Below, piece after piece: positions 49,464 to 60,900 of a stretch of 64,000 bases of DNA. The stretch is from Microbacterium dauci (GTDB lineage Bacteria > Actinomycetota > Actinomycetes > Actinomycetales > Microbacteriaceae): positions 434,001 through 498,000 of the forward strand of contig NZ_JASJND010000001.1 of the NCBI RefSeq assembly GCF_030065535.1, given 5' to 3'. Made by a program: the position numbers and the translations under genes. The notes beneath the pieces are model-generated. The model was not told the DNA's origin and made no database searches. It saw only the letters and a list, made by a program, of their open reading frames with translations. How positions within the stretch are numbered: position 1 is the first letter of the stretch; each line of letters opens with the position of its first letter.

Positions 49464-50204
49464 TCAGCGGTCGCCGGCGTCCTCGTCGAGGAGCGGCAGG
49501 TCGGCGGCCGTCACGAGGCGCGAGAGGATCGCGTGCTCGACGAGCCGCGCACGGCGGTTGGTGGCGAGCTTGCCGCCGCCGCCGCGGAGCCCCTGCACGC
49601 CCTCGCGGTCGAACTTGTCGCAGACGTTGTCGAGCTTGCGGTTGAAGGTCGTGAGCGGCCAGCCGAGCCGCTGCGCCGCGGCCGCAGACGACGGGATCTG
49701 GCTCGAACCCATCATCCCGCCGCGCAGGATCGGCTCGCACAGTGCGACAAGCAGCTGCTTCTGGCTGATCGTCAGCGGCACCGCACCGATCGTCGTGCCG
49801 CCGTCGGTCGCGTCGTCGGCCGGCAGCTCACGACCGGTGAACCGCGCCGCGTCGTTGCGGATCGTGAACTCGTACGTGTACGAGCCCGCGGTGAACATGA
49901 CGAGCAGCTCCGGAAACACGAGCGGCACCCGTGTGCCCGGACCGAGCATCGCCTGGTACGCGCCGTCGGCGGTGGCGAGGGCGACCGAGATCGACTTGCC
50001 CGTGTTCGCGAGCCACCACAGATCCTGCGCCGACTCGACCTCGAGCAACCGCCGGTGCAGGTACGGGTTCGTGTCGATCACGAGGTCGGCATCACGACCG
50101 ATCGAGTACACGGTGCCCGGCACGGGGTAGAACCACTCGCCACAGAATTCGATCCCGAGTTTCGCGGTCGTGTGCTCGGCCGTCTGTTCGATGTCGCCCG
50201 TCAT
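49464..50204 (-). CDS. FHA-like domain protein with C-terminal helix-turn-helix-like domain
   Basis: 246 residues from the ATG in an ATGA overlap with the upstream gene. Residues about 18-100 resemble a forkhead-associated domain (VYSIGRDADLVIDTNPYLHRRLLEVE, the GR and HRRL positions that bind phospho-threonine), then LANTGKS. Residues about 140-235 form a helical domain (ISQKQLLVALCEPIL ... SSAAAAQRLGWPLTTFNRKLDNVCDKF) that looks like a winged helix used for DNA or protein binding. Last gene of the minus-strand operon, directly after the threonine-motif scaffold that it may bind. Confidence 0.7.
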   Translation of the reverse strand: MTGDIEQTAEHTTAKLGIEFCGEWFYPVPGTVYSIGRDADLVIDTNPYLHRRLLEVESAQDLWWLANTGKSISVALATADGAYQAMLGPGTRVPLVFPELLVMFTAGSYTYEFTIRNDAARFTGRELPADDATDGGTTIGAVPLTISQKQLLVALCEPILRGGMMGSSQIPSSAAAAQRLGWPLTTFNRKLDNVCDKFDREGVQGLRGGGGKLATNRRARLVEHAILSRLVTAADLPLLDEDAGDR

Positions 50205-51010
50205 CCGGGTCCCCCTCCGATGATCCAAAGGATGCCGGTGACCGCCCCTCCTGCGATCACCACACCGCCCGCCACCACGGCGAACAGCACCCCGCGCCGC
50301 GGTCGCGGCGGGGGAGTGGACGAACCGACCGCCTCGGGCGCGGTCGGCGGTGCCACGGGATTGCGGGTGACCGGCGCCGGGGCGTCGGCACGCGGCCGGT
50401 AGATCGCCCGCGCAGCGACCACACCAGGGACGGTCGCCGCGCGCGGCGTGTCCGCGCGACCGTGCGCGACGCCGGTGTCGACCTCGCTGATGCTGCGGGC
50501 GTCGACGGCGCGGCGCTGCACGATTGTTTCGTCGTCTGCAGGCGTCTCGTCGGCCGCAGGGGTCTCGTCGGCCGTGGGTGGCTCGTCGACCTGCGGCGCA
50601 TCGGCGGTGCGCTCCGGGACGTCGGTGTCCTCGATCAGCCGCTCGACGCGCCGGGCCACCAGCGCGGTGCGGTCGTCCGGCACCTCGGGAACGTCGGTCG
50701 TCTCGATGACCGGGTCGAGGCGACGGCGAGAGAGCGTCGTGCGCTCGTCCGCGGCATCCGCGTCGGCAGCGTCAGGGACAGCCGTATCGTCGATCAGTTC
50801 GGATCGCCGGGCGGACAGGACGGTGTGCTCGTCCGTCAGCGGGACGTCGTCCGAGGTGATCGGCGCGAACCGGGGCGCCGCGATGCTCGTACGGTCGTCG
50901 ACCTCTTCGGCCGCCCGCCGTGCGGACAGCGTCGTGTGGTCGTCGGGCTCCTCCGCGGCGCGCCGGGCCGACAGGGTGGTGCGCTCGTCGGGCGAGAACG
51001 GGTCAGTCAT
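50201..51010 (-). CDS. tail-anchored protein with repeated threonine motifs (possible FHA scaffold)
   Basis: 269 residues, no known domain. Residues 8-170 carry about seven copies of an acidic-x-T-x-[LIV]-x-x-R-R motif: T11 (DERTTLSARR), T26 (DDHTTLSARR), T41, T63 (DEHTVLSARR), T91 (DERTTLSRRR), T115 (DDRTALVARR) and a shorter one at T162 (DETIVQRR). They resemble the ETTS phospho-site of GarA/OdhI. A single C-terminal hydrophobic helix (about 243-265) makes it tail-anchored with the motifs in the cytoplasm. Genes for a PP2C phosphatase and FHA proteins flank it with overlaps, so phosphorylated threonines may recruit FHA domains. Inference; no kinase is visible. Confidence 0.75.
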   Translation of the reverse strand: MTDPFSPDERTTLSARRAAEEPDDHTTLSARRAAEEVDDRTSIAAPRFAPITSDDVPLTDEHTVLSARRSELIDDTAVPDAADADAADERTTLSRRRLDPVIETTDVPEVPDDRTALVARRVERLIEDTDVPERTADAPQVDEPPTADETPAADETPADDETIVQRRAVDARSISEVDTGVAHGRADTPRAATVPGVVAARAIYRPRADAPAPVTRNPVAPPTAPEAVGSSTPPPRPRRGVLFAVVAGGVVIAGGAVTGILWIIGGGPG

Positions 51011-51854
51011 GTGCCCGCCTCCGCGCCGAGGGCACCGTCGACACCTCGATCGTGCCGGTCGCCAACCCGCTCGTCATGAGGCCGCCGGTCGTGTCTTCGA
51101 GACTCGGATGGATGCCGCCGCCGACGACGTCCACCACGATCGCGGTCACGTTGTCGCGGCCGCCGTGCGCCAGCGCCTGCGCGACGAGCGACCCCGCCGT
51201 ATGGATGGGGGAGCCGCCCACGAGAAGACCGGCGCGGATCGCTTCGTCGGTGATCTCGCCCGACAGGCCGTCCGAGCAGATGAGCAGCCGCTCGCCGGTG
51301 ACGGCTGGCAGCAACCAGTAATCGGCGGGGCTGCGCTCGCCGCCGACGGCCCGGGTGATGACGTTGCGCGCCCCGTACCCCGACACCTGCTCGCGGGTGA
51401 GTCGACCGGCATCCACCATCTCCTGCGCGATGGAGTGGTCGATGGTCAGCTGCTCGAGACGCTCCGACAGCAGGCGGTAGACGCGGGAGTCGCCGATGTT
51501 GACGACGAGCCATCGCGGGTGGCCGTCTTGGACGACCGCGACGATGCCGGTCACGGTCGATCCGGCGCCACGGGTCGTTCCGGCAGCGATCGCGGCGACG
51601 GCGGCGTGCGCCGCGTACACCGCTTGCGAGACCTCTTCGGGCGCGACGTCGCTGCGGCCGACGAGCGGGCGGAACGCGTCGATGACGGCGGCCGAGGCCC
51701 GGTCGCCGGCTTCGTGCCCGCCCATCCCGTCGGCAACGAGGTAGACCGGGAAGCTCGCGAGGTACGAGTCTTCGTTGACCGGCCGGCGCAGCCCGGGGTC
51801 GGTCAGCGCGCCGCTGATCACCTCGAGATGCGTGCTCGGCTCCGGTCCCCGCAT
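51003..51854 (-). CDS. PP2C-family serine/threonine phosphatase
   Basis: 283 residues from the ATG at 51854, 1 nt after the upstream stop; the long frame to 52517 is not real. PPM motifs: RRPVNEDSYL (metal Asp), LVADGMGGHEAGDRASA, VNIGDSRVYRL, TRAVGGE, LICSDGLSGEI and GGRDNVTAIVV, so all metal-binding aspartates are present. It removes phosphate from Ser/Thr in proteins; likely targets are the threonine motifs of the gene downstream and the motif in the FHA protein upstream. Soluble, no membrane helix. Confidence 0.92.
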   Translation of the reverse strand: MRGPEPSTHLEVISGALTDPGLRRPVNEDSYLASFPVYLVADGMGGHEAGDRASAAVIDAFRPLVGRSDVAPEEVSQAVYAAHAAVAAIAAGTTRGAGSTVTGIVAVVQDGHPRWLVVNIGDSRVYRLLSERLEQLTIDHSIAQEMVDAGRLTREQVSGYGARNVITRAVGGERSPADYWLLPAVTGERLLICSDGLSGEITDEAIRAGLLVGGSPIHTAGSLVAQALAHGGRDNVTAIVVDVVGGGIHPSLEDTTGGLMTSGLATGTIEVSTVPSARRRAHD

Positions 51855-51855
51855 G

Positions 51856-53073
51856 TCAGCCTTCCGAGAGGTGCAGTTCGGCGTCGCCGAGCAGGAACCG
51901 GCCGGTGACGACGGTCGGCGCGGTGACCTCGGTTTCGGCGTCGCTCGCGCCGACGAAGACGCCGTTGGTGGATGCCAGGTCGCTGACGAGCCAGCGGTCG
52001 CCGTCGCGGCGGAGCAGGGCGTGGGTCTTCGACACAGTGCGGGTGACGTCGTCGATCGGGACCCGCTGCGCGCCGGGCGTCTCGGCGGGTGCGACCGGGT
52101 TGCGCCCCAGCACGGCGGTGTCACCGAGCAGGGACACGGTCGTACCGCCGGGGAGCGTGAGGGTCGTCGTGGCCGTGCGCCGGTGCGCCGCGAGGATCGT
52201 GTGGTCCTCGACCTCGTCGAATGCCGCGGCCGGCGCGGGCGTCGGAGCCGGCGCGGGGGTCGGAGGTGCAGCCGGGGGCATCGGCGCGGGAGCGGCCGGT
52301 GCAGGAGCGGCCGGGGCAGGAGCCGCGGGCGCAGGTCCCGCCGCTGCAGGAGCCGCCGCAGCCGGTGCCGGTGGCAGCCACGGGTTCGCGCCGGCGGCCG
52401 GCGTCGGGAGCGGCGCGCCGCCGGGCGGGACGGGCAGCGCGGCGGTGGCGGCGCCGGGTGCGAACCCCGCCGCGGCCGGGACGGTCGCCGGTGCGCCGGG
52501 GACGATCGGCGCGCCACCGCGGCCGTGCCACGCAGCGGTGCCCCAGCCGACGATGCTCGCCCACACCGGGAAGAGCAGCACGCCGAGGAACGTGAACGGC
52601 AGGCCGAGCGCGAAGCCGCGATTCAGCGCGGTGAACATCCGCACCGCCAGGATGAGGACGAAGATCGCGAACGCCGTCCACAGCACGAGGGGGACGATCG
52701 TCGCAAGCACCATGACGCCGGTGGCGGACGTGCTGCCGCTGAACGCGGCATCCACGACGGCATCGGCGAGCAGCGCGGCCATGATCGCCGACACGACGAG
52801 GACCACCGCCCCGGCGGCCGCCTGGACGACCGCCCACCAGCCCTTCATGCCGGCGAGCTCGAACAGGGTCCACATGTTCACGACCGGCACCCACGCCTTC
52901 CAGGCGGGCTGCCCCACCTTACGGAAGACCGCGGTGAGGGCGAGCGCGAGCCAGACGTAGACGCCGGCGAGGAGGACGAGTTGCACGAGGTTCGCCACGA
53001 TCGAGAGCCCGTCGAACGCGGCACCGCCGATTCCCGTCGCGACTGCTTGGACCATCTCCGTCATCTCGCCCAC
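51856..53073 (-). CDS. DUF5684-like membrane protein with C-terminal FHA domain
   Basis: 405 residues from the GTG at 53073 (ATGs at 53064 and 53055 are alternatives). About four or five membrane helices (15-190), with the WKAWVPVVNMWTLFELAG pattern of DUF5684. A long Ala/Pro linker (about 195-290) leads to a phospho-site-like EDHTILAAHRR, close to the motif repeated in the gene at 50201, and then a complete FHA domain (about 310-405: VLGRNPV, RTVSKTHALLRRD, DLASTNGVFVG). It can both carry and bind a phospho-threonine, so it may switch between self-binding and partner binding. Confidence 0.85.
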   Translation of the reverse strand: MGEMTEMVQAVATGIGGAAFDGLSIVANLVQLVLLAGVYVWLALALTAVFRKVGQPAWKAWVPVVNMWTLFELAGMKGWWAVVQAAAGAVVLVVSAIMAALLADAVVDAAFSGSTSATGVMVLATIVPLVLWTAFAIFVLILAVRMFTALNRGFALGLPFTFLGVLLFPVWASIVGWGTAAWHGRGGAPIVPGAPATVPAAAGFAPGAATAALPVPPGGAPLPTPAAGANPWLPPAPAAAAPAAAGPAPAAPAPAAPAPAAPAPMPPAAPPTPAPAPTPAPAAAFDEVEDHTILAAHRRTATTTLTLPGGTTVSLLGDTAVLGRNPVAPAETPGAQRVPIDDVTRTVSKTHALLRRDGDRWLVSDLASTNGVFVGASDAETEVTAPTVVTGRFLLGDAELHLSEG

Positions 53074-53109: not shown

Positions 53110-55605
53110 CTATCCACGTCGTCCGCGCCCCTTCCGGCGGCCGCGGCGCTCATCACGGCGTCGGAGCGAGCGCAGCGAGGCGCGCGCGCGCCACCGCCGC
53201 CACCAGCCCAACTCACCGGCGAAGCGGGCCCGCTCGGCGTCGACGATCCGCCAGAACTCCGCGTTCTCGGCATCCGAGGGCGGCGTCGCATCGAACACCG
53301 AGCGGTCTGCCAACGTCGCCAGTCGTGCGCCCTCGCCCGCATAGAGCGCCGCGAGCTCCTGCCGGGTCTGCGTCTGCGGCACCGGGTAGCCGTGGTCGAC
53401 GGCGGTGTCGACGAACTCCTGCCAGCCGCCGGTGAATCGGTCGACGACGTGCGCGGCGCGTCGGCGCGAGCGGCGCCTGACCGCCTTCGCGATCAGGACG
53501 ACCAGGAGCGGGCCGAACAGCACGACGAGGCCCAGCAGCGAGATCCCCGTCACCCGGAGCGCGAACCACAGGCCGCTGAGGTCGGCCTGCTCCTCGGTCG
53601 TGTCCTCCGCACGCTCGGTGCCGTCCGACGGACTCGCATCGGCGGGGAGCACCGACTCGGCGTTCTCCCGCCGGACATCGGTGGGGTTCTCGGGATCCTG
53701 ACGCTGCTCGAGGTCGGGGGACGGGAACGACTCGGACTGCGGCGTCGCGTCGATCGCGGTCCAGGTGCCCGCGGCATCCTGCACCTCCACCCACGCCGCA
53801 AGATCCCCGCCGCGGCACGTGCCGTCGTCGTCGCACGCGGGCAGGCCGTCGTCCCCGCGCAGGCGCGTCCCCACGACGACACGGGACTCGAACCCGAGCT
53901 GATCGGCGATGAGCATCGCGGCGACCGCGAACTGCTCATCGTCGCCGATGCCCGACACGAGCGCGGCATCCGAGGCGTCACCCATCTCGCGTTGGCGCGC
54001 GAGGAGTTCGCTGAACAGTACGCCGATGCGGTCGGTGGAGTGCCCCGCGCGGCTGGGCTGGAAGTCCTCGATGCCGAGATCGCGCATCCAGACGGGCGCG
54101 GCATCGGCGTCGGCATCGGCGGACAGCGCGTGGCTGAGGTAGCCGCGCGCCCGCAGTCGGTCGATGAGCGTCTCGAGTCCGGCGCCACCGGTCGGTGCCC
54201 CCTGCGCCTCGATCCATTCGGTGAGCGACTCGGGGACGAGGTCGGTGGGCAGGCTCGGTCCGCTGCGCGCGGGGACGAGGGATGCCACGGCCGTGGCATC
54301 CGCCTCGACGACGGCTTCGAGCCGGTACGCATCACCGGGCTCGAGGCCACCGCCCTCGAGTTCCACGGCAGTGCCGGTGGCGGCGTTGTGGAAGAACCCG
54401 TCCGCGAGGGCTGATGCGCGCGCACCGTCGAACGCGATCGTGTGCAGCTGTCCGACCGTCGGCACCCAGATCCCGCCGAGGTCGCCGACGCCGACCTCGA
54501 TCGTGGTGGTCGCGCTGGCCGTGTCGATCTGGGATGGCACCCGGGTGAACGCGGTGGTCGGGTCGAGGAGGCCGGCGTCGGGGTCGACGGCGCGGACCGT
54601 GCGACCGTCGTAGAACGGCAGTGTCGCGATGCGCACCCGGTCGACCTGCTCGGGAGCGGCCACCGTGAACAACGTCGCTTCGTAGGCGTCATCGCCGAAC
54701 GACGCCCGGTACTCGGCGAGTGGACTGAGGGTCTGCGCGACCTCGAGGAAGGGGTCGACGGCGGCGCGGGCGACGTCGCGGGAACGATCCGCGAGCGCCC
54801 ACGGCGCCCAGAGCGCGGCGCCGGCGACGGATGCCACGACCATCGCAACCGCGACAGCGGCGCGTCCGGCGAGGCCGCGGGTCGCGCGGCCGGTCGTGCG
54901 CACGCCGCTCGCGGCGGCGGTCTGGCGCAGCGCGCGGCGGCGGTCGTCGCGCATCCGCCAGATGACGACCGCGAGCGCCGCGACGAGCGCCGCGGCGCCG
55001 ACGAGTGTCTCGATCTGCACGGCGAACCCGGCGAAGCGGAGGGGGGCGGACAGGCCGCGGGCACCGAACACGACGCCGAACACCGTCAGTCCGAGCGCGG
55101 CCGGGACGGCGAGCCACCACCACCGCCGCGACCGCCACGCCAGCGAGAGCGCCGCGGTCGGGAGGGCGATGAACAGGAACAGGACGGGCGCGAGGGTGGT
55201 CTGGTAACTGCCGAGCGGAAGCTCGAGGGTGAGGAGGTCCTTCCACCCGGTCGCCGGGGCGATGAGGATGCCCACGAGTGCGCGGAGCGCCGTGGGCACC
55301 GAGACGAGGCTGCCGGGCGCCGCCACCGGCAGCCCGAGCACGGCATACGCGCCGAGTGCGGCGAGCGCGGTCCACCAGCCCGACCAGCGCCAGCGCGTGC
55401 CGAGGGCCGCGACGGCGTGCGCGGCGACGAGCCCGGCCCCGACCGCGATGAGGAACACGGGACTGCGGTAGATCGGCCAGGCGGCGACGGCGCCGACCGC
55501 GAAGAGGACGTTCAGGAGCGCGGCCTGCACGAGCAGGAACCGCCAGCGGTCGGCGGTCGCCCGCGCGGTGCGGGTCTCGCGGAGCGCCCGGCGCGAATCG
55601 TTCAC
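53110..55605 (-). CDS. membrane transglutaminase-fold protein, probably inactive
   Basis: 831 residues. Six or so N-terminal membrane helices (about 20-265), a large outer domain, a transglutaminase-like core (about 545-620) and one more helix (about 660-685) before a cytoplasmic basic tail. Aligned by eye to GYCEQFA...RVVVG...HAWVEV...DATP of the family, it reads GDDEQFA...RVVVG...AAWVEV...DATP. The catalytic Cys is Asp556 and the His is Ala604, while the Asp is kept, so it is unlikely to be an active transglutaminase or protease. It belongs to the MoxR-DUF58-transglutaminase gene set common in bacteria. Overlaps the DUF58 gene by 4 nt. Confidence 0.82.
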   Translation of the reverse strand: MNDSRRALRETRTARATADRWRFLLVQAALLNVLFAVGAVAAWPIYRSPVFLIAVGAGLVAAHAVAALGTRWRWSGWWTALAALGAYAVLGLPVAAPGSLVSVPTALRALVGILIAPATGWKDLLTLELPLGSYQTTLAPVLFLFIALPTAALSLAWRSRRWWWLAVPAALGLTVFGVVFGARGLSAPLRFAGFAVQIETLVGAAALVAALAVVIWRMRDDRRRALRQTAAASGVRTTGRATRGLAGRAAVAVAMVVASVAGAALWAPWALADRSRDVARAAVDPFLEVAQTLSPLAEYRASFGDDAYEATLFTVAAPEQVDRVRIATLPFYDGRTVRAVDPDAGLLDPTTAFTRVPSQIDTASATTTIEVGVGDLGGIWVPTVGQLHTIAFDGARASALADGFFHNAATGTAVELEGGGLEPGDAYRLEAVVEADATAVASLVPARSGPSLPTDLVPESLTEWIEAQGAPTGGAGLETLIDRLRARGYLSHALSADADADAAPVWMRDLGIEDFQPSRAGHSTDRIGVLFSELLARQREMGDASDAALVSGIGDDEQFAVAAMLIADQLGFESRVVVGTRLRGDDGLPACDDDGTCRGGDLAAWVEVQDAAGTWTAIDATPQSESFPSPDLEQRQDPENPTDVRRENAESVLPADASPSDGTERAEDTTEEQADLSGLWFALRVTGISLLGLVVLFGPLLVVLIAKAVRRRSRRRAAHVVDRFTGGWQEFVDTAVDHGYPVPQTQTRQELAALYAGEGARLATLADRSVFDATPPSDAENAEFWRIVDAERARFAGELGWWRRWRARASLRSLRRRDERRGRRKGRGRRG

Positions 55606-56954
55606 GACTGCGCCCCCTTCGCGAGGAGCTGCCGCAGGTCATCGAGCAGGCCGATCGAGATGACGGTCATCGCGCCGAGTCGCTTGATGCCGGGCTGCGC
55701 GGTCGGCGCGCAGACGAGCGCGGCGACCGTAACTTCGGGTCCGAACGCGAGGGCCGCGGTCTGCAGCTGCGTCGGCGTCAGCGTCGAACCGCAGATCAGG
55801 AAGGCGATCGACACGTCGGGGTGCGCTTCAGCGGCGAGCGCCGCCACGTCGCGCAGGGGATTCACCCGCTCGGACCGGTCGACGCCGGAGAGGTCGTCGA
55901 GCAGGGTGCGCGACGACACCGTGGTGAGTTCGCGGATGCTGCGGACGGCGCGGCGCGCGAACTCGGGCACGTCGCCGCCGACGATGACGTCGACGTCGCG
56001 TCCGTCGCGGATGCCGCGGACCCCGACGGATGCCGCGGCGCTGACGGCCAGCTCGAACTCGTCGTCGCTCTCGTACTCGTCGTCCCCGAGGGAGAGGGCG
56101 ATGACCATGCGGGAGCGCCGGGTCTCTTCGTACTGGCGCACCATCAGATCGCCGGTCTTCGCCGTCGACTTCCAGTGGATCTGGCGGGGGGAGTCGCCGG
56201 GGACGTAGGGGCGGAGCGCGTGGAACGAGAAGTCCGCGTCGACGATCGTGCGGGATGCCGCGCCCTCGAGGTCACGGACGAAGCCGGCGGCCGTGCTGCG
56301 CAGCGCCGTCGTCATCGGGTGGATGTAGAGCGTGTGGGTGTCCTCCCACGTCGCTTCGCGGGTCAGGATGCCGAGGGGGTCGCCCCGCACCGTGCGGGCG
56401 GGCCCGATGGTGAGCACACCGCGCCGCATCGTGGGGATCACGACGGGCTCGCGGATCTCGTGCGTCGGGCGCAGGAGCGGGACGTGCACGTCGACGAGCC
56501 CGTCACCGACCGGGACGTCGACACGGCCAGGCAGAGCGGTGCTCCGCCCGACGTTCGTGACGACGAGTTCACCCTCGACCGGCGTTCCTGCGACGACCCG
56601 GTCGTGCTCGAGGAGCAGGCGGACGTCGTACGCTCGCGCGCTGAACAGGAACGGCACCGAGCACACCAGCAGCACGGTTGCGGCTGCACCGGCGACCGCG
56701 AACTCGAGCAGCCCGAATCCGAGGCCGAGCCCGAGTCCCGCCACCGCGACGCCGAGTGCGATCCACCCGGCGGGCGTGACCGTCTCGACGATCCACCGAC
56801 CCGTCCGCTCAGCGACCGCCCGGACGCGTCGCCACGTCTGCACGCCACGGACCGCGAGGACCGTCGTGGACCTCGCGGTGTCGCCGTAGCGGGTGCGGGC
56901 GAATCCCGTGGACGTCGCCGTCCGCGTGAGTCGCGACTCGGTGTGGAAGCTCAC
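55602..56954 (-). CDS. DUF58-family membrane protein
   Basis: 450 residues. Two membrane helices (about 62-105) and then the DUF58 domain with its hallmark FHALRPYVPGDSPRQIHWKST (about 248-268) and a VWA-like fold afterwards. DUF58 proteins are MoxR clients with unknown exact function, often tied to envelope stress or secretion. Starts in a GTGA overlap with the MoxR stop and ends overlapping the transglutaminase-like start. Confidence 0.9.
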   Translation of the reverse strand: MSFHTESRLTRTATSTGFARTRYGDTARSTTVLAVRGVQTWRRVRAVAERTGRWIVETVTPAGWIALGVAVAGLGLGLGFGLLEFAVAGAAATVLLVCSVPFLFSARAYDVRLLLEHDRVVAGTPVEGELVVTNVGRSTALPGRVDVPVGDGLVDVHVPLLRPTHEIREPVVIPTMRRGVLTIGPARTVRGDPLGILTREATWEDTHTLYIHPMTTALRSTAAGFVRDLEGAASRTIVDADFSFHALRPYVPGDSPRQIHWKSTAKTGDLMVRQYEETRRSRMVIALSLGDDEYESDDEFELAVSAAASVGVRGIRDGRDVDVIVGGDVPEFARRAVRSIRELTTVSSRTLLDDLSGVDRSERVNPLRDVAALAAEAHPDVSIAFLICGSTLTPTQLQTAALAFGPEVTVAALVCAPTAQPGIKRLGAMTVISIGLLDDLRQLLAKGAQS

Positions 56955-57946
56955 GCCCCCTCTTTCCGAGCGGCATCCGCCTGGCCCTGTTCACGGGCGC
57001 TGGGCGGGGCGACATCGAGGAGCACCTGGCCGATGACCGCGCCCGGGGTGACACCGTCGAACTCGGCTTCGGGGTCGAGGATGAGTCGGTGCGCGAGCAC
57101 GGGCCCGGCGAGCGCCTTCACGTCATCGGGGGTCACGTAGCTGCGCCCGTGTGCGAGCGCCCACGTGCGCGAGGCCTTCGTCAGCGCGAGTGCACCGCGC
57201 ACGCTCACGCCGAGGCGCACTTCGGTCGCCAATCGCGTCGCTTCGACGAGGCGGGCGATGTAGTCGAGGACGAGCGGGCCGAGGTACGCGCCGCGGGCGA
57301 TGTCGGCCATGCTCACGACTCCCTGCGGCGTGATGACGGGCCCGACGTCGCGGCGTCCGCCGCTCGACCCCTCGAGGATCCGCACGGTCGCGGCGTGGTC
57401 GGGGTAGCCGAGACTCGCTTTCATGAGGAAGCGGTCGAGCTGCGCTTCGGGGAGGCGGTACGTGCCCGCCTGCTCCACGGGGTTCTGCGTCGCGACGACG
57501 AGGAACGGGATGCCGACCGGTCGGCTGACCCCGTCGACCGTGACCTGGCCCTCCTCCATCACCTCGAGCAGCGCCGACTGGGTCTTAGGGGAGGCGCGGT
57601 TGATCTCGTCGGCGAGGACGACGTTGGCGAAGATCGGACCCTGGTGGAACTCGAACTCGCCGCGACGCTGGTCGTAGACGGTGATGCCGGTCACGTCGCC
57701 GGGCAGCAGGTCGGGCGTGAACTGGATGCGCGAGCTCGTGCCCTGCACGGACTGCCCCATCGCACGCGCGAGCGACGTCTTGCCGGTGCCGGGGTAGTCC
57801 TCGAGCAGCAGGTGCCCCTCCGAGACCATTGCGGTGAACGCGAGCTCGATCACGTGGCGCTTGCCGAGCACGACCTGGTCGACGTTGTCGACGAGCCTCG
57901 TGAAGGTCTCGTGGAACCAGGTGCTCTGGTCCTGGGTGATCGTCAT
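56951..57946 (-). CDS. MoxR-family AAA+ ATPase
   Basis: 331 residues from the ATG at 57946 (GAGAGGAA upstream); the extra N-terminus in the longer frame is basic and not MoxR-like. Walker A EDYPGTGKT (about 48-56), Walker B VVLADEINRASPKTQSALLE, sensor 1 VATQNP and sensor 2 region VRGALALTKASR. A cytoplasmic chaperone-like ATPase acting on VWA/DUF58 partners, here the gene 4 nt downstream. Confidence 0.94.
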   Translation of the reverse strand: MTITQDQSTWFHETFTRLVDNVDQVVLGKRHVIELAFTAMVSEGHLLLEDYPGTGKTSLARAMGQSVQGTSSRIQFTPDLLPGDVTGITVYDQRRGEFEFHQGPIFANVVLADEINRASPKTQSALLEVMEEGQVTVDGVSRPVGIPFLVVATQNPVEQAGTYRLPEAQLDRFLMKASLGYPDHAATVRILEGSSGGRRDVGPVITPQGVVSMADIARGAYLGPLVLDYIARLVEATRLATEVRLGVSVRGALALTKASRTWALAHGRSYVTPDDVKALAGPVLAHRLILDPEAEFDGVTPGAVIGQVLLDVAPPSAREQGQADAARKEGA

Positions 57947-57974
57947 CGTGTTCCTCTCGGTGTCCTCATCGGCC

Positions 57975-60900
57975 TTACGGCTCGACGGGAGCGTCGGTGG
58001 TCTCTTCGGGGGTCGGCTCGGGGTCGGGCGTCGGCGTGGGGTCGGGCGTCGGCTCGGGCTCCGGCGGCGGGAGCGCACAGGTCTTCGAGTGCGAGGTCGT
58101 GCCGAGCGCGGACAGTGCGCCCTCCCATTGCACCGAGAAGGTGTACGTGCGAGACAGCAGGCTGTCCTCGGTCTGCACCGGCCGGATGGTGTAGTCGGTT
58201 TCCGCGGCGGTCACCTCGACGGAGCCGCGGGGCGCCTCGCCGACACGGCAGCTGTCGGGGAAGCGGACGCGCGCGGTGTAGACGGGCCCGGCGGGATCCG
58301 CGGTCACTTCTCGTGCGTTGGGCGTCCCGCAGCCGAACGAGTCGTTGCAGAGCGCCGCGATGATCCGGCCGGGCGGGACGCCGAGCGTGAACAGACTCGC
58401 GAAGTCGCGGGTGTACGTCTCGCCGTCATCCACCGAGTAGCGCACGTCGAAGCGGCCGCTGCCGCGCAGGTTCGGTGCCCGGACGTCATCCCACCGGTGG
58501 ACGAACATCCCGTTGTCGCTGAACCGATCGGCGTTCGACCCGATGCGGTACGTCGCGTCGCCGTCCGGTGCGTCGATCTCGCCGACGGGCGTGATTTCCT
58601 GCGAGACGGGCGCGCCATCGCCGAACTGGGTGCCCTCGTTCAGGGTTTTCGCGCAGGCACGGATGGTCACGCGCTCCCACAGCGGCAGGTCGCGATACTC
58701 CTTGGTGACCGTGCCACCGCCTCCGCCCGTCCGTTGCTCACTGGGGCTGCAGTTCTGCCCGCCGAGCGAGAACCCGACGAGGATCGCCTCGCCGACGCCG
58801 TTCGGTGCGACGGTGGCCCGCGCGGTGACGACCGATCCGTCGGGGTTCTGGGTCACCTCGAGCGTGATGCTCGGTGCGCCGATGCCGTGCGCGCGGAATT
58901 CCAGCGACCGACCCTCGCTCGACCCGCCCGCGATCGGCGGCAGGTCGAACTGCGTCAGGGGGGTGGCGACGAGCGCCGTCGGCTGGTTCGCCCCGATCTG
59001 GTAGCCCGTGAACGTCGCGGTGCCGTTCGATGCGGACTGCGTCGATCCGCCGGCGGCGCCGCCGGTGAGCCGCACGCTGCCGGTCGTGGCATCCAATCCC
59101 GAGACGACGATCGTCGCGACCCCGCCGCCGTTCCCGGCGGGAACCGGGGTGAACGTCGCCGTGCGCGGCTGCGCCGGCGGGCGGTACGCCCACGCCTCGA
59201 CGCGGACGCTCCCGCGCGACGTGCCGACGGCGTTGACGGCGTGCGCCTCGTACGTGCGCTTCTCGCCGACGGGCGCCGAGATCGGGGCGCAGATGCCCGA
59301 CGCCGGGCAGGTCGCGACCTCGCGGCCGCCGGTCGTGATGCGGTAACTGTCGACACCGGGGTACGAGCCCGCATCCGACGTCACTCGCAGGGTCACCGAG
59401 TCTTCGCTGTAGGCGGTCCACTCGAGGCGGGTGGGGTTCGCGGGGAGCCCGCGCAGATCGAGCACGACCTGACCGTCGCGGTCGCCGCTGGACTGGCGCC
59501 CCTGCGCGTCTTCTACGGTGAACGTTCCGACGCAGCGTGCGGCGCCCTCGGCATCCGAGGCCCACGTCGCCCGCACCGAGGTGTCGCCCGCCCGCGCGAA
59601 CGACACGCCTGCGCAGTTGTCGGGTCCGTTCGCGCCGACGACTCGCAGCGGGGTGCCCGGCAGGGGATTCACTTCCCCGGCGGTGCCGATGACGTCGATC
59701 ACGCACGAGGTCGACCCGCCCGACTGGGAACACGTCTGGATCGTCGAACCGCCGCGCGGGAGCGCAGACGGGGCCGGCCCCACGGTGACGACCAGGCTCG
59801 CCGCCGGCGCGTCGGGGTGGCTCGGCAGTGTGATGGTCAGCGGCTCCTCGCGGCCGGGACGGGCGGCATCCTTCGCCGTCACGGTAACCGTCGCGCCGGA
59901 TGCCTCGACCTCGAACTGGTCGCCGCGGTAGGCAGTCGCGTACTCGAGTGCGTCCCACGCCTCGCGTCCGGCCCACTGCACCATCCGGGCGAGGTCGTAC
60001 GTCGCGGTGTCGCCCGGACGCACGGCGAGCGAGGCGCTACGCAGCGACGGCTGCGGCGTCTCTGCTTCGACCTGCACGACGAGCGCGAGGTAGGTGTACT
60101 CGTCCTGGATGGCGAGCCGCGCCGGCACGATGCAGGTGTCGTTCCACGGCGCCCCGCGTCCCGCCGTGTACCGGATGGTCGTGCCGGAGGTGACCCGGCA
60201 GGATGCCTCGGCGCGGGCACCGCCGGTCTCCACGTCGCCCCGACCGAGGACGAGCGTCTGCCCCTCGGGGAGGACCACCGCATCGGCGAGGTCGAGGTCG
60301 ACGGACTCGTTCTCGACGACCTGCATCGGATCGAGCCCTGCCCGGAGGGTGAGACGGATGTCGGCGGTGCCGGGGACGCGGAGGAAGCCGTACGTCGTCA
60401 CCTCGGTGCCGTCGAACGCCGTGCCGGACACCTCGAACGGGACGAGGAGCGCGGACTCGGGCAGGTCTCCCGAGATCCGCCACCCGTCGGCCTCGATGCC
60501 TTCGGGGTCACCCCACAGGCGCAGCTCGAGGGACGACGGGTCGCCCGCGTTCCAGCTGACCATGTCGGTGAGGACGTCGACGCCGGTCGGGAAGTCCTCG
60601 CGGTTCTCGAGGGTGAGGATCGTGTCGCGGACGGCCGGGTGATCGGGCACCGGATCGCGGACGACCTTGAGGACGAGGAGACCGATCGCGGTGTCGCCCG
60701 TGGTGTTCGTCACCGTGTAGCTGTACGAGAAGGTGCCGAGCGCGTCGCCCGCGCGGAGGGTGACGGCGCCGTCCTCGACGGATGCCACACGATCCGCGAG
60801 CGCCGCGTACTCATCGCTGCCTGCAGGCGCGTTCGGCACCACATCGCCCAACTCGAGCTCGCTGCCGAACGGGTCGACGTCGTTGTCTGCGGGACGCACG

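Follow-up and report, generated by a model that had tools for sequence, protein, structure and literature searches.

Among the closest described systems, the juxtamembrane domain of PknB and the tail of the pseudokinase MviN/MurJ recruit the FHA protein FhaA in mycobacteria (PMC6180346, PMC12599244, PMC12077195), and the FHA proteins GarA, OdhI and DgcB carry self-peptides with an acidic residue at position -2 from the threonine and hydrophobic residues at +2 and +3 (PMC6733907). Mycobacterial sites that depend on PknA are acidic upstream, with a hydrophobic residue at +3 and a basic residue at +4 (PMC7164672). Here we report on a 64,000-nucleotide stretch of the Microbacterium dauci genome (contig NZ_JASJND010000001.1, positions 434,001 to 498,000; hereafter the window, meaning the whole stretch analysed) and on one protein within it, P0001, which carries a strip of repeated threonine motifs ahead of a C-terminal membrane helix. 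We consider P0001 to be, with fair probability, a membrane-anchored and catalysis-free phosphothreonine adaptor comparable to LAT, which would receive its phosphates in trans and be recognised by FHA domains; the idea of a docking strip appears well supported by comparison with relatives.

P0001 (269 aa) opens with an ATG and lies between a PP2C phosphatase gene and a small gene, P0003, a position that we call the slot. Neither Pfam nor NCBIfam gave a match for it at E values up to 0.1, and it showed no FHA match in Pfam and no kinase domain with HRD and DFG (no Pfam match was obtained, and the window's slot lacks a kinase match). A first-pass annotation, made from the letters alone, had described a tail-anchored protein with about seven repeats of acidic-x-T-x-[LIV]-x-x-R-R. 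Its coordinates, strand, open reading frame (ORF) and C-terminal anchor held up, the last by hydropathy, and threonines 11, 26, 41, 63, 91, 115 and 162 are all in place. The seven motifs are better counted as five strict copies (T11, T26, T63, T91 and T115) and two variants (T41 and T162). Five strict sites compare with a mean of 0.02 in 2000 composition-preserving shuffles of the protein. At the DNA level, D/E-x-T-x-[LIMVF]-x-x-R-R gives 49 matches genome-wide on either strand and in any frame (19 in the reversed control); five of the 49 fall in the P0001 gene, and no other same-strand cluster occurs among them. The motif copies are far above chance, which supports the adaptor reading.

Around these sites, residues 1-235 hold 50 D+E, 27 K+R and 17% order-promoting residues, a composition on which the chain is predicted to be disordered. 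The membrane helix is covered by twelve 19-residue windows with a mean Kyte-Doolittle value above 1.6, starting at residues 239-250, and RPRR stands before it, an arrangement that would keep the strip sites cytoplasmic. A second interspersed repeat, [IV]-[DE]-x-T-[DA]-V-P, is present at T76, T105 and T129 (IDDTAVP, IETTDVP and IEDTDVP; 50615-50794, minus strand), and the strip of locus L142 also has this type (VEDTDVPQ, three times).

P0001 is too variable for direct search (as a query, it gave three weak matches outside its own genome among 150 family genomes), so homologues were found by synteny via P0003 and DUF58; 80 named loci were fetched. P0003 homologues occur in 58 genomes of the 150 searched in the family, 129 of 198 in the genus and 170 of 396 in the order. 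The slot was read in the 13 genus genomes with P0003 at 62% identity or more plus L154, L155 and L074, out of the 129 with P0003, and at order level in 40 loci fetched from the 170 P0003-bearing genomes; L158, L159, L161, L162, L170, L241, L288 and L292 duplicate loci already counted. A complete Ser/Thr kinase is the usual gene immediately ahead of P0003 (53 kinases in 57 family loci); a slot kinase with HRD and DFG is present in 46 of 63 named loci (L173-L235), and a slot kinase in 25 of 40 further loci. This is what the first-pass annotation could not show: the slot is normally a Ser/Thr kinase, the strip is elsewhere the tail of an active-looking kinase or a pseudokinase, and the tail of the operon kinase holds the acidic-x-T-[IV]-L core, with no Arg pair at +5/+6.

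We compared 25 Microbacterium loci, namely the 13 genus genomes at 62% identity or more (window included) and 12 other named Microbacterium, with L154, L155 and L173 excluded as another operon type. Between PP2C and P0003 these encode an active-looking kinase in four (L146, L148, L150 and L151), a pseudokinase in seven (L147 and L163-L168) and a kinase-less strip in 14, including the window. All seven pseudokinases have HGR for HRD and GFD for DFG and retain the VAVK lysine; they make up a small Microbacterium group with motif-bearing tails (one to four strict sites). The kinase tails of L146 and L150 carry four strict sites each. Retention of the strip where the kinase has lost HRD/DFG (7/7 pseudokinases) or is absent (14/25, and also in Demequina and other genera) again supports the adaptor reading. 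Two further records may be noted. L174, a metagenome-assembled genome of Actinomycetales, encodes an active-looking slot kinase whose tail has six sites (LDDRTALASRG-like repeats). L173, under a record named Sporosarcina beigongshangi (Bacillota), is an actinobacterial locus with a P0003 nearly the same as that of genome G604, and the record is probably mislabelled or contaminated.

Kinase-less strips total 32, in Microbacterium, other Microbacteriaceae and Demequina (kinase-less at L225, L227, L238 and L239), and span at least two families. The DUF58 route yielded 20 further window-type operons, read regardless of P0003, and in 16 of these (two of them duplicates) PP2C or FHA is followed by an ORF with several motifs and a terminal helix. 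Fourteen Microbacterium and four Demequina strips were first seen by position; the 14 from L276-L295 were recognised by at least two motifs plus a helix, and their counts depend on that choice. Together the 32 strips contain 137 [DE]xTx[LIVM]xx[RHK] sites against 2.3 expected from shuffles, for which 18 strips were trimmed to 25 residues before the first motif. In an alignment of 32 strips, four kinases and seven pseudokinases, P0001 shares its juxtamembrane element (GRADTPR..A.YRPR...P.V.R.PVAPP) and helix with the slot kinases, and the YxxR-type Tyr is present, by eye, in 40 of 43 aligned rows. The view that the motifs are the only conserved parts of P0001 therefore has to be given up; strip sites, juxtamembrane element and helix are common to the kinase, pseudokinase and bare-strip forms.

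Such shared parts are what one would expect if P0001 were a decaying relic, a functionless remnant of a kinase after loss of its catalytic domain, whose repeats are tandem-duplication noise. The same slot and the alignable juxtamembrane element and helix, a site number that ranges from 0 to 8 (the maximum in L149), and the four of 20 related operons in which no strip was found are all consistent with that account, which we nonetheless hold to be quite improbable. All 32 strips are open frames with a helix across two families. In ten related slot-tail pairs, motif-core differences are mostly synonymous (20 nonsynonymous, 56 synonymous) and those in linkers are not (454 and 287), with 91 and 69 at other motif positions and 77 and 48 in the helix region; these are crude counts rather than rates, and the pairs are partly non-independent (L163 and L167 are each used twice). 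By these counts the motif core positions alone look constrained. The motif copies are not merely recent duplicates, because 56 of 152 same-residue core positions differ in codon. Finally, decay fits badly with the DUF58 tree, in which the strip is common and the kinase forms are nested. On the point that the first-pass annotation had held decisive, whether homologues keep the motifs, the comparison comes out in its favor: cores change mostly synonymously, copies number up to eight, two families are represented, and a single copy precedes the FHA domain of the DUF5684-FHA protein.

The profile of 115 sites from 23 of the 25 slot proteins is most informative at -3/-2 (acidic), T, +2 (Leu), +3 (Ser/Ala), +5 (Arg) and +6 (Arg/His), although the search pattern itself fixes T and restricts -2, +2 and +5. 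The likeness to GarA/OdhI put forward in the first pass holds for the acidic -2 and hydrophobic +2 residues and fails at +3, which is mostly small here (S 0.44, A 0.37) rather than hydrophobic (PMC6733907). At +5, Arg is found in 115 of 115 sites, with His allowed by the pattern, and at +6 Arg or His in 72%. These arginines speak for docking that is independent of phosphorylation, in which the acidic-T-hydrophobic-Arg motif binds an FHA face, PP2C or lipid head groups without phosphate; known FHA self-peptides are not described with such arginines in the consulted part of their source (PMC6733907). We give this explanation a small chance only, and the choice of residue speaks against it: in 26 FHA proteins it is always Thr and never Ser, as FHA specificity for phosphothreonine would ask. 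The strips themselves carry no weight on this point, since their search patterns demand Thr. GarA-type FHA domains also have phospho-independent partners, which we count in favor of phosphate-free docking.

Candidate readers with the same motif are encoded nearby. The first pass had noted a single EDHTILAAHRR before the FHA domain of the neighboring DUF5684-FHA protein, P0002, and this copy is confirmed. In 26 of 26 aligned loci (25 Microbacterium and L174) the motif lies about 30 residues before GR, and T, GR, SKTH and TNG are invariant in all 26 rows, the window's included. A pattern of SxxH plus NG gave an FHA ORF at every Microbacterium locus, and the invariance of these residues is partly by choice of that pattern; at L168 and L172 the automated search took a later match and the motif is visible on reading the sequences, and at L169 it has a single Arg. 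The motif recurs in four of four Demequina loci with P0003 (ADDRTVLAARRR or like) and in 19 of the 20 DUF58-found operons, two of which duplicate Demequina loci already counted; the 19 include all four without a strip. FHA2, the second FHA protein of the operon, reads LPDERTLLGGRR ahead of its canonical FHA domain. By eye, acidic-x-T-x-hydrophobic precedes FHA in 11 of 13 FHA2 loci, with the full consensus in four (the window, L142, L147 and L149), Phe at +2 in L143-L145 and a shifted Arg pair in L148, L151, L152 and L153. The tail of the operon kinase reads RRPDEGTILAGAEPRRR just ahead of its helix; [DE]GT[IV]LAG is present in 13 of 13 such tails (PDEGTILAG in that of the operon described here), and four other kinases have 0, 0, 0 and 1 match to a looser pattern.

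Similar sequences were also observed elsewhere. Demequina PP2C tails end in DDTT..RRR-like sequences in seven of ten loci read (L277, L278, L284, L289, L290, L292 and L295), as though FHA domains addressed the phosphatase as well, and Microbacterium PP2C tails (ten loci read) show a weaker likeness, T[IV]E and later Arg runs with no acidic -2. A second DUF5684-FHA-like protein outside the operon (L106, G000:C9:169301-170711) has DDVDQTVMVRRRR before its FHA domain, and two Bifidobacteriaceae-like FHA proteins have, by eye, IEDWDSTVLS 35 residues before GR. At L105 (G000:C1:2584-8644) the gene after an FHA protein is an FHA-FtsK (EssC/TsdC-like) ORF that keeps the canonical FHA residues and may be another reader.

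The spread of the motif also bears on a substrate sink, or decoy, in which the strip absorbs kinase or PP2C activity or keeps the FHA proteins in an inactive pool. Like motifs occur on FHA proteins, on kinase tails and on the tails of some PP2C enzymes, all of which could compete, and P0001 is a multisite candidate substrate whose operon also encodes a neighboring kinase and phosphatase. A sink needs neither a membrane anchor nor a conserved juxtamembrane element, and alone it does not account for the same motif before FHA domains; we regard it as unlikely.

Under the adaptor reading, the operon kinase would phosphorylate the strip in trans, PP2C would dephosphorylate it, and DUF5684-FHA and FHA2 would dock on the phosphothreonines through their FHA domains, such that several FHA molecules could collect at the membrane next to the FN3/transglutaminase/MoxR machinery. 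The single motif of the FHA proteins themselves may compete with the strip, through closure in cis or head-to-tail chains, and this competition could make FHA recruitment switch-like. More tentatively, P0001 may play the part of LAT in a bacterium, as a transmembrane phospho-adaptor with no kinase domain that seeds FHA assemblies at the membrane: the own motif of DUF5684-FHA may favor TIFA-like head-to-tail chains in trans, seeded by the strip; the motif core could serve as an operon-wide address common to the strip, the kinase tail, the FHA proteins and certain PP2C tails; and the conserved module may be the docking tail rather than the catalytic domain, because kinase, pseudokinase and bare-strip forms exist.

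Several observations weigh against the adaptor reading. Among the 32 stand-alone strips, L152 and L171 have no sites and L153 has one by the loose pattern; the slot kinase tails of L148 and L151 have no strict sites (one and three by the looser pattern); and in four of the 20 DUF58-route operons no strip was found though the FHA protein retains its motif. The operon kinase tail copy has no Arg at +5/+6, and the FHA2 proteins of L146 and L150 have no motif before FHA; a kinase tail with the motif core alone, together with varying FHA2 and PP2C copies, lowers our confidence. The +3 residue, often a position of FHA specificity, is mostly Ser or Ala, unlike GarA/OdhI, and no role in the proposed mechanism accounts for the arginines at +5/+6. 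An AlphaFold2 model of the window FHA domain, which contains no phosphate, has a mean pLDDT (predicted local distance difference test score) of 84.4, with the motif T17 about 12 residues before the first strand, which starts at residue 29; the model was examined for cis docking of the motif and none was seen with confidence, the motif region having pLDDT below 50 at residues 9-12 and 14-17 and no confident placement. Strip phosphorylation and FHA binding are, moreover, predictions from sequence.

On how the strip came to stand alone, the trees point both ways, toward repeated kinase loss or toward a kinase joining a pre-existing strip. In the kinase tree, slot kinases and pseudokinases lie across a 100/100 branch from 13 operon kinases and 53 kinases of the family; the branch to the pseudokinases is long, and some of the tree's joins are flagged unsure. 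A tree of four proteins (P0003, PP2C, transglutaminase and DUF58; 25 loci) places strips in three separate groups: L169/L152/L153/L171 by the kinase clade, L149 by the pseudokinases, and the window's clade. An unordered count on this tree gives two changes, which would need kinase gains, and an ancestral, non-regainable kinase would, on our reading, imply at least three losses. In the DUF58 tree the strip is the widespread state, with 30 of the 45 rows of the ingroup, and the kinase forms are nested in Microbacterium. The L174 kinase is 63-66% identical to slot kinases; its identity reaches no more than 55% with slot pseudokinases, 54% with family kinases and 47% with operon kinases, and these figures speak for an old kinase form.

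The coordinates of P0001, its motifs and its neighbors are collected in Table 1. The operon is on the minus strand, in the order FHA2, Ser/Thr kinase, FN3/Ig-like protein, MoxR, DUF58, transglutaminase, DUF5684-FHA, PP2C, strip and P0003; the FN3, MoxR, DUF58 and transglutaminase names come from comparison with the PFNA operon and not from domain search.

Table 1. Features of the strip operon. Positions are those of the window unless a contig is given.
Feature	Coordinates	Strand	Remark
P0003: FHA-like fold (weak match) and helical C-terminal half	49464..50204	-	
Strip protein P0001, 269 aa	50201..51010	-	ATG start
C-terminal membrane helix, about residues 240-264	50219..50293	-	Hydropathy and alignment
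Juxtamembrane element, residues about 182-222	50345..50467	-	Alignable with relatives' slot kinases and pseudokinases
Variant motif T162, DDETIVQRR	50510..50536	-	Arg pair one place early
Motif T115, DDRTALVARR	50648..50677	-	Strict consensus
Motif T91, DERTTLSRRR	50720..50749	-	Strict consensus
Motif T63, DEHTVLSARR	50804..50833	-	Strict consensus
Variant motif T41, DDRTSIAAPR	50870..50899	-	One Arg
Motif T26, DDHTTLSARR	50915..50944	-	Strict consensus
Motif T11, DERTTLSARR	50960..50989	-	Strict consensus
PP2C phosphatase	51003..51854	-	Best NCBIfam match Stp1/IreP family, below cut-off
DUF5684-FHA protein P0002	51856..53073	-	
FHA domain of P0002	51946..52110	-	Canonical GR, SKTH, STNG
Single motif of P0002, EDHTILAAHRR (T292)	52177..52209	-	Before FHA domain
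Transglutaminase-like membrane protein	53110..55605	-	Name from PFNA operon comparison
DUF58-like protein	55602..56954	-	Name from PFNA operon comparison
MoxR-type AAA ATPase	56951..58078	-	Name from PFNA operon comparison
FN3/Ig-like protein, 2002 aa	57975..63983	-	Name from PFNA operon comparison
Operon kinase, kinase domain	G000:C1:498333-499082		Just past window end
FHA2, FHA domain	C1:499311		Just past window end

P0001 starts within the PP2C stop region (8 bp overlap) and its stop overlaps an ATG at 50204 as ATGA; P0001 and P0003 are likely to be coupled, because of this overlap, provided that the ATG is the start of P0003. The helical half of P0003 is very conserved, yet the protein, present in 170 of 396 order genomes, has no Pfam or NCBIfam match. 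Its model (mean pLDDT 67.6) gave no Foldseek match at an E value of 0.001 or better; the best FHA match was 6ccd (E 0.0043, target template modelling score 0.65). By eye it is without the usual SxxH and NG[TS]. With an FHA-like fold from weak matches and the usual Ser and His absent, P0003 is unlikely to be a phosphothreonine reader.

The locus brings together a kinase, a phosphatase, candidate readers and a multivalent strip in a single operon and offers a compact and genetically tractable system for the question of multivalent phospho-scaffolds in bacteria. The natural series, in which the strip is free or sits on an active-looking or dead kinase, presents the docking strip as the shared module, and the strip suggests a role for kinase, PP2C and FHA in the poorly understood PFNA/T7SSd-like surface operons. 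Among the titles and abstract openings listed by searches of an open-access library, we found no bacterial multivalent phosphothreonine membrane adaptor read by FHA domains, nor any study of this kind in Microbacterium.

As an operon, the locus resembles PFNA of Bifidobacterium, which runs pkb2-fn3-aaa-duf58-tgm, then prpC, an unknown gene and fha (PMC8430577). From the kinase onward the first five genes have the same order (kinase-fn3-AAA-DUF58-transglutaminase, named by comparison), with a phosphatase and FHA after them; the window operon differs by its extra DUF5684-FHA and P0003. P0001 as the unknown seventh gene of PFNA was considered and, for the loci read, rejected: five of eight Bifidobacteriaceae-like loci (L297-L301) hold another kind of protein after the phosphatase, one that begins V[DS]YDxAVAxxQDPxADP, has two similar ends and shows, by eye, no strip and no membrane helix. 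The T7SSd type VII secretion system (TsdA, C, D, H, I, of which TsdA is a WXG100 protein and TsdC is FtsK-like; PMC11217815) is similar in its kinase, Ig-like giant protein and FHA readers. No FtsK-like ATPase is found among the operon ORFs read; the FHA-FtsK ORF lies elsewhere (G000:C1:4052-8644). The threonine phosphorylation pathway of the type VI secretion system, PpkA-PppA-Fha-TssL, likewise combines a kinase, a phosphatase, an FHA reader and phosphothreonine on a membrane component, TssL; it has one site on a structural component, and the consulted part of the report describes no multivalent adaptor (PMC3953482).

At the level of the motif, PknA-dependent sites are alike in kind and differ in exact positions (PMC7164672). 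GarA, OdhI and DgcB share the acidic -2, the Thr and the hydrophobic +2, and have the motif N-terminal to FHA as DUF5684-FHA does, whereas the +3 is mostly small here and the motif is multiplied in a separate membrane protein (PMC6733907). A threonine motif and FHA domain in one chain, as in GarA/OdhI, are found in P0002 and not in P0001. LAT-type transmembrane adaptors of T cells are catalysis-free membrane strips with many phosphosites, acting through phosphotyrosine and SH2 domains; the likeness to P0001 is one of analogy, without homology. In TIFA, an FHA protein's own nearby phosphothreonine drives intermolecular assembly into oligomers, and here too the likeness lies in the idea, by analogy and not homology (PMC13283784). 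PknB and MviN are similar in that an FHA protein is recruited by phosphothreonine on the tail of a kinase or pseudokinase and, for MviN, the kinase acts in trans; there, however, the tail is joined to a kinase or pseudokinase domain, while P0001 is free-standing, has many sites and lacks a kinase fold (PMC6180346, PMC12599244, PMC12077195). The strip is best seen as a variation on known FHA-read kinase tails, and what is unusual is that the tail is its own protein.

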